DNA of 64,000 bases from Cytophagaceae bacterium (GTDB taxonomy: Bacteria > Bacteroidota > Bacteroidia > Cytophagales > Flexibacteraceae). Shown piece after piece: positions 17,289-31,667 of this stretch. Position 1 is the first letter of the stretch, and the number at the start of each line of letters is the position of its first letter. The notes beneath the pieces were generated by a model. That model was not told where the DNA came from, ran no database searches, and worked only from the letters and a program-made list of their open reading frames with translations. The position numbers and the translations under genes were made by a program. The DNA lies in the NCBI GenBank assembly GCA_947458545.1, contig CANGYH010000001.1, forward strand, positions 868,001-932,000, given 5' to 3'.

Positions 17289-17900
17289 TTGATCACGCTT
17301 TTTGAAGGAGCACCCATTGCCCGCTTGTTTGAAGGTAAAACAGGCATAAGTCTTCTCTCCGTTGCCGAGCTTGAGCAGGGCACTTTGCCTGAAGCTCAGA
17401 TTCTCTTCTTACCAGAGTATTACCAGATAGACGAGGATATGGTGCCAGCCGACCTTTCTGCCATGTTGGTAGGTGTTGCTGAGGTTTGCGCGCCTGAGCT
17501 AGACAGACTGCCTGACGGTGTCTTTTATTACAACTTCTGGCCTGCGCCCAATGCCAAGCTATCTGTGCTGGAAGTGGTAGCCCAGCCAAACGTGCTAGCC
17601 TTGCTGCAAGACGTACTGGGCAGACTAGACATAGGCGTTGTGGCTGCCCCGGCTACCCCGGGTATGATTGCGCCGCGGGTGGTGGCTATGATCATCAACG
17701 AGGCCCATCTGCTATTGCAAGAGGGTGCGGCATCGGCGGCAGACATTGACCTGTCAATGAAGCTGGGCACGGGCTATCCACTGGGGCCCTTCGAGTGGGA
17801 AGCACTGGTTGGTGTAGAAAGAGTTCGGGCTCTGCTTGGCGCTATGGCCGAGCGAGAGCCCGAAGTAATTGTACCCTATTGGACCGTGGGCAGCAATTAA
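17289..17900 (+). CDS. Stand-alone 3-hydroxyacyl-CoA dehydrogenase C-terminal-domain protein
   Basis: 203 residues. The second half matches the helical C-terminal domain of 3-hydroxyacyl-CoA dehydrogenases: TPGMIAPRVVAMIINEAHLL, EGAASAADIDLSMKLGTGYP and LGPFEWEALVGVERV. Upstream, FYYNFWPAPNAKLSVLEVV recalls the substrate-side loop between the two domains. The first 75 residues are too short for a Rossmann fold and no GxGxxG is present, so NAD binding is unlikely. No ATG fits; TTG at 17289 is the probable start. The stop overlaps that of the converging gene within a TTAA palindrome. It may be a non-catalytic acyl-CoA-binding relative; the function is unknown. Confidence 0.7.
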   Translation: MITLFEGAPIARLFEGKTGISLLSVAELEQGTLPEAQILFLPEYYQIDEDMVPADLSAMLVGVAEVCAPELDRLPDGVFYYNFWPAPNAKLSVLEVVAQPNVLALLQDVLGRLDIGVVAAPATPGMIAPRVVAMIINEAHLLLQEGAASAADIDLSMKLGTGYPLGPFEWEALVGVERVRALLGAMAEREPEVIVPYWTVGSN

Positions 17901-18091
17901 GCTGCCTTGGCCTTTTTGCGTGCTTTGAGCTTCCGGTAGGCATAGATGCCACCCGTAACGGCAAGGGCGCTGAGGCCACCGTCGGCCGGAATAGGATCTG
18001 GGCTGCCCCCGATGGGTGGGGGATCGTCTGCTAGGGCTACCGAGGCTATAGCAAACAAGCAATAAGCCAGCAGGTAAAGGTGTTTTTTCAT
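17897..18091 (-). CDS. Small secreted protein with a PID-CTERM-like sorting tail, 64 residues
   Basis: ATG 18091 opens a signal peptide (MKKHLYLLAYCLFAIASVALA). It is followed by only a short proline-rich segment (DDPPPIGGSPDPIPADGG), a hydrophobic stretch (LSALAVTGGIYAYRKL) and a basic end (KARKKAKAA). The tripartite tail, a short motif then a helix then basic residues, is the layout of C-terminal sorting signals processed by exosortase-like or archaeosortase-like enzymes. The IPADGGL motif is close to the PIDGGL motif I know from Bacteroidota. A GTG at 18103 is an alternative start. No sortase gene is in the window. Confidence 0.6.
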   Translation of the reverse strand: MKKHLYLLAYCLFAIASVALADDPPPIGGSPDPIPADGGLSALAVTGGIYAYRKLKARKKAKAA

Positions 18092-18294: not shown

Positions 18295-18321
18295 AAAAAA
18301 AAGCCCCGCACTGCGGGGCTT
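18295..18321 (-). terminator. Rho-independent terminator after the CAU tRNA
   Basis: AAGCCCCGC (18301-18309) pairs with GCGGGGCTT (18313-18321). On the minus strand the stem is followed by eight T residues (18295-18302, overlapping the stem base). Confidence 0.85.
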
Positions 18322-18357
18322 GTAAGAGAAAGGCCGCATTTAGATGTCTGCGGCATG

Positions 18358-18431
18358 TGGGCCCACCTGGGCTCGAACCAGGGACCGCCTGATTATGAGT
18401 CAGGAGCTCTAACCGACTGAGCTATAGGCCC
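18358..18431 (-). tRNA. tRNA with CAU anticodon (elongator Met or Ile2)
   Basis: A 74-base cloverleaf on the minus strand. The acceptor arm GGGCCTA pairs with TGGGCCC (one G-U pair). The D arm is GCTC-AGTCGGTTA-GAGC. The anticodon stem is CCTGA/TCAGG with loop CTCATAA, giving anticodon CAT at 18395-18397. The T arm is CCTGG-TTCGAGC-CCAGG and the discriminator is A. CCA is not encoded. CAU can mean elongator methionine, or AUA-reading isoleucine if the C is modified to lysidine; the acceptor sequence is isoleucine-like but this cannot be settled here. Initiator tRNA is unlikely because position 1 pairs with 72. Confidence 0.93.

Positions 18432-28533: not shown

Positions 28534-31667
<3,134 letters not shown>

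Follow-up and report, generated by a model that had tools for sequence, protein, structure and literature searches.

In the PEP-CTERM/exosortase systems (EpsH, XrtA), the substrate carries a signal peptide, a short motif, a hydrophobic stretch and a basic tail, the membrane enzyme has Cys, Arg and His residues, and polysaccharide genes sometimes adjoin; all of these traits recur in the system described here, the signal peptide as judged by eye. PEP-CTERM substrates normally carry a passenger protein, whereas the estimated mature part of the proteins considered here measures about 8–50 residues and the gene is, in relatives, mostly paired with one for a cargo protein of the type 9 secretion system (T9SS). 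In the current exosortase model, as given in the accessible parts of two papers, cleavage takes place near the motif and a new group is proposed on the resulting C-terminus (PMC7468200, PMC11980579). A related Bacteroidota exosortase is XrtF of Flavobacterium johnsoniae, whose deletion much reduces the biofilm and abolishes zorbs, as do deletions of porU, porV and sprA, and whose substrates are left to future research in the accessible text of that study (PMC10936215).

Also close is the PID-CTERM/XrtX/NF046082 system of the NCBIfam models, with which the genome studied here shares the tail and the enzyme family; in addition, the gene that follows one XrtX gene weakly matches the model of the companion membrane protein. 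Neither the term “PID-CTERM” nor “exosortase X” gave a match in the open-access literature, where three XrtX papers were unrelated by title. The accessible text of the study on the adhesins RemZ and RemA of F. johnsoniae contains no mention of a micro-protein (PMC10994853), and no report of a micro-protein paired with RemA-like adhesins was found in the open-access literature, as far as its texts were accessible (PMC10936215, PMC7468200, PMC7662799, PMC12645872, PMC10994853, PMC10202324, PMC11980579, PMC12618676).

The window, by which we mean the whole stretch of 64,000 nucleotides that was analysed, comes from a Cytophagaceae genome of 3.23 Mb in 9 contigs and contains the small gene whose parts are collected in Table 1. 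The open reading frame runs on the minus strand from an ATG at 18091 to a TAA at 17897–17899, and thus lies where the initial annotation had placed it; its signal peptide, judged by eye to comprise residues 1–21 and to end in ...ASVALA, leaves the mature part of about 43 residues that had been given there. Between the signal peptide and PADGG lie some 13 residues rich in Pro, Asp and Gly, and PADGG, the hydrophobic stretch and the basic tail form the extreme C-terminus.

Table 1. Features of the micro-protein gene and of the region upstream of it (positions in the window).
Feature	Position	Strand	Basis
Micro-protein gene, 64 aa, PID-CTERM type	17897..18091	-	ORF; NCBIfam NF046080 match; three paralogues
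Signal peptide, residues 1-21, MKKHLYLLAYCLFAIASVALA	18029..18091	-	judged by eye; cleavage after ALA
Presumed mature peptide, residues 22-34, DDPPPIGGSPDPI	17990..18028	-	three unlinked identical copies
Sorting motif PADGG, residues 35-39	17975..17989	-	P.D anchor; PIDGG in most relatives
Hydrophobic segment, residues 40-52, LSALAVTGGIYAY	17936..17974	-	sequence; PID_CTERM match = residues 37-58
Basic tail, residues 53-64, RKLKARKKAKAA	17900..17935	-	sequence
Terminator-like hairpin between tRNA-Met and micro-protein gene	18301..18321	-	consensus scan only
tRNA-Met upstream of the micro-protein gene	18357-18431		

The 265 bases upstream of the gene include the terminator-like hairpin, which suggests transcription separate from that of the tRNA-Met gene; given these two features, the micro-protein gene is probably transcribed alone. 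A sigma-70 scan of the upstream region found no promoter, and the best match to the Bacteroidota-type promoter consensus is imperfect. There is no same-strand gene with a T9SS tail directly upstream, the tRNA-Met gene standing there instead, and neither an adhesin gene nor XrtX adjoins. On the other side, the gene and a convergent open reading frame (17289–17900, plus strand) overlap in their stop codons; the convergent frame matches the C-terminal domain of 3HCDH only (PF00725), and partial homologues of this frame, of 220–235 codons, occur in 4 of 10 other genomes of the family, so that a short family is possible rather than a broken gene. Elsewhere in the window, at 28534–29523 on the plus strand, a 329-residue protein bears a T9SS type A tail (TIGR04183 match at genome position C1:897299-897511); by eye its gene stands between ClpC-like and LigA-like genes, and the genome scan placed no PID_CTERM match beside it.

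The C-terminal sorting signal that had been read from the sequence is also what the family models report, at a level that is marginal for this copy. The NCBIfam model PID_CTERM (NF046080) matches the protein with 23.3 bits (E 4.2e-5; 22.9 bits in the genome scan), 2.7 bits less than the curated cut-off (26); it was the only NCBIfam match, Pfam gave nothing at E<=10, and no PEP-CTERM model of either collection matched, under HMMER filters that drop most weak matches. For comparison, 8 of 14 control genomes match PID_CTERM at E<=1 and none exceeds the cut-off. The initial annotation had proposed to look for the same tail elsewhere in the genome, and three more PID-CTERM genes are indeed present (C8:45350, C1:1706762 and C1:1298210), all above the cut-off (31.9, 43.6 and 38.0 bits); a fifth match, with E 0.66, was taken as chance. 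Two of these paralogues, unlinked to the window copy, align with it over nearly their full length (E 1.6e-16 and 1.7e-16; identity 56 and 58%), and the third aligns over residues 25–61 of the window protein (E 0.0032). All three have a same-strand gene with a T9SS tail directly upstream. The window copy thus differs from the described PID-CTERM system in its score, in having PADGG for PIDGG and in standing alone.

The exosortase-family genes for which a search had likewise been proposed number two, both of the XrtX type. The enzyme at C2:100204 scores 182.2 bits against the NF046081 cut-off of 170 and fits XrtX better than XrtF (182 vs 81 bits); the one at C1:1297555 scores 143.1 bits, below 170, and lies directly behind the PID gene at C1:1298210. 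Neither reaches the cut-off of the Pfam exosortase model (22.2 and 20.6 vs 25.7 bits). In an alignment of 20 of 72 XrtX matches, made up of the best-scoring ones and the genome's own C1 copy, Cys106, Arg147 and His166 (numbering of the first row) are invariant, both own copies included, and we take these to be the exosortase catalytic residues. The gene after the C2 enzyme weakly matches the model of the XrtX-associated membrane protein, NF046082 (32.7 bits, E 5e-8, below the cut-off of 75). The order at the C1 locus is a giant cargo protein, the micro-protein, XrtX and a small T9SS protein, the last being a 358-residue protein with a T9SS tail (L012:6342-7415, minus strand). Just before the C2 enzyme lies a permease that by eye is EamA-like (L011:605-1522, plus strand), and three relatives have genes resembling drug/metabolite exporters immediately ahead of PID genes (L148, L149 and L152), a hint of a rearranged common locus.

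A survey of 146 genomes of the order, with matches to both models taken at E<=0.001, found PID_CTERM in 52 and XrtX in 60, both in 51, PID_CTERM alone in one, XrtX alone in nine and neither in 85 (Fisher p 1e-28, a value not corrected for ancestry). Only 30 of the 60 XrtX genomes exceed the XrtX cut-off, and some of these enzymes may therefore be sister exosortases; among 14 control genomes, three match and none is over the cut-off. PorU, the sortase of the T9SS, is found in 136 of the 146 genomes, including every PID genome, and being nearly ubiquitous it makes the T9SS the background and XrtX the discriminator.

The surroundings of all 110 PID_CTERM matches in the 52 genomes were analysed, with start codons assigned by a simple rule. 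That the window protein has practically no passenger, as had been remarked, is true, yet it is no oddity: 108 of the 110 matches lie in frames of at most 153 codons, and the recognisable presumed substrates of XrtX are almost only passenger-less micro-proteins. The two long frames have 995 and 248 codons, and the former (L189, G036:C1:2167132-2167203) ends in a PID-like tail, PIDGEVW. P.D, which served as the anchor, is present in all 110 matches, followed by a Gly in 109 and by a second Gly in 107, and Lys or Arg occupies the first tail position in 98 and the second in 94; the window copy alone has Ala between the Pro and the Asp.

An upstream neighbour of these genes, defined as the nearest same-strand open reading frame of at least 90 residues, was available at 103 of the 110 loci, and 79 of the 102 that were scanned after one duplicate had been dropped bear the T9SS type A tail (TIGR04183, E<=0.01). 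With a local profile of the tail, 80 of the 110 PID genes follow a same-strand T9SS cargo gene and 30 do not; this profile was trained on some of the sequences that it counts, and 79 of 102 is the independent figure. Of 104 downstream neighbours, 103 were scanned after removal of one duplicate; 22 of them are XrtX, and the 25 families listed for the set, which go down to families with two matches, do not include TIGR04183. The loci divide into 59 with a T9SS partner only, 21 with both a T9SS partner and XrtX, 11 with XrtX only and 19 with neither in the stretch read, and the window copy belongs to the last class. The T9SS-paired genes come from 24 of 29 genera and 11 of 12 families; their median distance from the cargo gene is 76 bases, with 72 of 80 within 150, and 77 of the 80 partners have at least 600 residues as far as read. 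In genus g16, PID genes (L097, L119 and L132) follow a transaldolase/phosphoglucose isomerase gene, assigned by sequence, instead of a T9SS gene. The pairing with T9SS cargo genes is new relative to the initial annotation.

It is a single kind of cargo protein that recurs in this position. A C-terminal module of about 380 residues, which stops some 70–100 residues before the end of the protein, is common to 78 of the 80 T9SS partners, and the two without it are 310-residue proteins of one genus. A single sequence finds the module in 38 of the 80 and a profile iterated within the partners finds it in 78, so that specificity is to be read from the count in the bacterium's own genome: there the module occurs at 8 of 90 loci with a T9SS tail (84 over the tail cut-off), and the three PID-paired cargo proteins are among these eight (hypergeometric p 0.0005). 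The other five have no PID-like open reading frame behind them, as judged by eye. In 45 rows chosen for mutual dissimilarity, identity to the first is 20–35%, and the profile of these rows has two clear matches among the chain sequences of the PDB, RemZ (E 1.4e-55) and RemA (E 3.6e-51); a third, with E 0.63, was taken as chance, and a profile made from named genomes retrieved the same two proteins. The relatives' partners thus share with RemA and RemZ both the C-terminal module and the T9SS type A tail, and on this homology they would act as adhesins; the window copy differs in that no such gene adjoins it. In the three partners of the bacterium's own genome, no Pfam or NCBIfam family was assigned to the module, and a PDB sequence search with the C-terminal 458 residues of one partner gave only unrelated-looking chains at E 0.04 and 0.09. 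The predicted structure of the module of one named partner (pLDDT 87, pTM 0.84, 29 rows) had no Foldseek match at E<=0.001 and a best VIA-align Z of 5.4, by which a known fold is neither shown nor excluded.

Module and exosortase also go together across genomes. At E<=1e-20 the module is found in 63 of the 146 genomes, 56 with XrtX and seven without, while four genomes have XrtX without the module and 79 have neither; in other words, XrtX matches in 56 of 63 module genomes and in 4 of 83 others. When one genome per genus was drawn 500 times from the 136 PorU-positive genomes, the association kept a median p of 4e-15 and a worst value of 4e-12, in a procedure that lessens shared ancestry and does not remove it. 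Five genera vary for XrtX, and within them module and enzyme are mostly, not always, found together; in genus g34 the module is present in three of five XrtX-negative genomes. In three genomes (G013, G099 and G115), PID and XrtX occur while the module is absent at E<=1e-20, and in at least two of these the PID/XrtX pair adjoins polysaccharide genes.

The nine genomes with XrtX and no PID_CTERM match were inspected for related small genes, G041 at XrtX only, with G133 outside the set read. In four of the nine (G026, G065, G077 and G127), a tiny variant with P-I-[ST]-G lies directly behind a module protein, at distances of -4, -4, -4 and 7 bases, three of them overlapping its stop, and G117 has a variant of 121 residues 49 bases behind a module protein; the module proteins read in G010 and G101, and a second one of G065, had no such variant visible behind them. 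Among named genomes, tblastn with the window protein found no relative. A survey of these genomes with the XrtX alignment as query gave 126 loci, of which 80 were kept, mostly of Hymenobacter, together with Pontibacter, Rufibacter, Adhaeribacter, Flammeovirga, Spirosoma and Flavobacteriales assemblies. A PID-like match lies within up to 6 kb on each side at 57 of the 80, which yields, with frames of more than 200 codons excluded, 58 PID-like genes, one of them (L271) lacking P-x-D; 28 of the 58 stand directly behind a module protein, in a sample that is not fully independent since some named records repeat genomes of the 146.

The short peptide between the two signals is itself conserved in three copies within the genome. 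In the 18-residue segment DDPPPIGGSPDPIP(V/A)DGG, 17, 17 and 18 residues agree in the pairwise comparisons of the window copy and two unlinked paralogues, while the codons differ synonymously at 6, 6 and 9 places; the window copy differs from each of the two adhesin-linked paralogues by 6 synonymous changes over 18 codons, the peptide DDPPPIGGSPDPI being identical. Conservation through synonymous changes is more than a non-coding stretch would show. In the same three proteins, signal peptides agree in 8–9 of 21 positions and tails in 9–15 of 25. A comparable case is genome G036, where three unlinked copies keep QGPGNGGPQPGATNAPIDGG while 7, 8 and 10 of 20 codons differ synonymously; the mature peptides are identical within each of these two genomes and different between them. 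This pattern is not general, however, since over 106 within-genome pairs from 24 genomes it is the tail that has the highest mean identity (0.59, vs 0.50 for the mature part and 0.24 for the signal). In genus g16, mature peptides are more alike within a genome (0.60, 50 pairs) than between genomes (0.48, 356 pairs; label shuffles, p 0.0005).

As to composition, Pro, Gly and Asp make up about half of the 108 estimated mature peptides, 104 of which lack Lys; 18 have at least two Cys, and 83 start with Gln, a count inflated by a cleavage rule that favoured Q, D or E at position 1. In a tree built from 22 modules, 14 from the family of the window's bacterium and 8 from elsewhere, with 12 two-Cys peptides of other families left out, the six modules that precede two-Cys micro-proteins form one clade with a support of 100/100, drawn from four genera of family f1. 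Four of the two-Cys genomes also hold the other type of pair, and module identity averages 22% over 7 same-genome cross-type pairs vs 41% over 15 between-genome two-Cys pairs. Adjacent genes are inherited together, and the clade therefore shows linkage that has long been kept, not binding.

Taken together, these observations lead us to propose, with a probability only a little better than even (about 0.55), that XrtX cuts the micro-protein, that the peptide serves RemA/RemZ-like adhesins and that the window copy acts in trans. The micro-protein would be exported by Sec and cut by signal peptidase after ...ALA; PADGG, the hydrophobic stretch and the basic tail would hold it in the inner membrane; and XrtX would cut near PADGG, probably joining the new C-terminus to a putative carrier. 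These steps of export, retention and cleavage are taken over from the accepted model of exosortase systems. A Pro/Gly/Asp peptide of 13–18 residues would remain, and this peptide, rather than the signal, would be the product. In most relatives the gene follows a cargo gene of the RemA/RemZ type, and the peptide would on that account most likely serve the adhesins at the cell surface, in the docking, anchoring or maturation of their shared module, a role that we infer from the gene pairing, the co-occurrence and the conservation of the peptide. The genome has eight module proteins and four micro-protein genes, and the window copy would add to a shared pool of peptide. On this view it is a relative, divergent and solitary, of the PID-CTERM micro-proteins and would serve the two XrtX-type enzymes of the genome as a substrate. 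The initial annotation had left the choice between an exosortase signal, a regulator and a peptide released by processing; of these, an exosortase substrate with a short mature peptide, conserved in three copies of this genome, is the best supported.

The peptide might instead form part of the matrix in association with exopolysaccharide, a role that has been proposed for PEP-CTERM proteins, the adhesin genes being mere neighbours in one surface programme. Loci that combine PID and XrtX with polysaccharide genes and no module speak for this: the upstream neighbour at L124 (G115) matches WcaJ, and at L227 (G099) a Wzc-like kinase exceeds the cut-off of its model while an EpsE-like protein stays under that of its own. 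In addition, one PID pair of the bacterium's own genome lies about 5 kb from a Polysacc_synt_2 protein, and the accessible text of two papers ties exosortases to exopolysaccharide in other bacteria (PMC7468200, PMC11980579). We consider it unlikely all the same, as partners drawn from one family (78 of 80) and the co-occurrence of XrtX with the module are left unexplained. A species-specific signal between cells, released as a peptide, would agree with the shortness of the product, with its identity within two genomes and difference between genomes, and with the higher within-genome similarity in g16; but gene conversion or duplication could also make the copies of one genome alike, no regulator family is among the 25 commonest downstream families, although two single neighbours (L121 and L125) resemble response regulators, and most of the genes are paired with T9SS cargo, all of which makes a signal distinctly improbable.

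Two further possibilities concern the value of the gene product itself. The window copy, being solitary, below the cut-off and unique in the Ala of its PxD, could be the decaying orphan of a lost adhesin gene; its frame is intact, however, its peptide is that of two adhesin-linked paralogues from which it differs synonymously, and its 265 bases of upstream space hold the terminator-like hairpin, so that decay appears very unlikely. Still harder to credit is a mere decoy or regulator of XrtX with a functionless peptide: the protein is little but signals, and over the 106 pairs the tail is better kept than the peptide (0.59 vs 0.50), yet in the three copies of its own genome and in those of G036 it is the peptide that has changed least, the divergence lying in the tail and the signal.

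A broader and more tentative view, to which we give less than even odds, is that XrtX and PID-CTERM constitute an unrecognised peptide arm of type 9-dependent adhesion, in which a short modified peptide would be the dedicated ligand, anchor or acceptor for the RemA/RemZ-like module and would link exosortase sorting at the inner membrane with T9SS display at the outer membrane. One form of it, to which we assign a low probability, has PorU couple the adhesin to the amine of the peptide; against it stand the peptides without Lys and the frequent Gln at position 1, even allowing for the inflated count of the latter. An N-terminal Gln can cyclise.

What the survey brings out is that most recognisable XrtX substrates are micro-proteins whose genes are paired with genes for a single family of T9SS cargo. 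Should the peptide serve these cargo proteins, two surface-sorting machines that are usually treated apart would join in one pathway, and it would become possible to test how the cell holds and uses adhesins of the RemA type.
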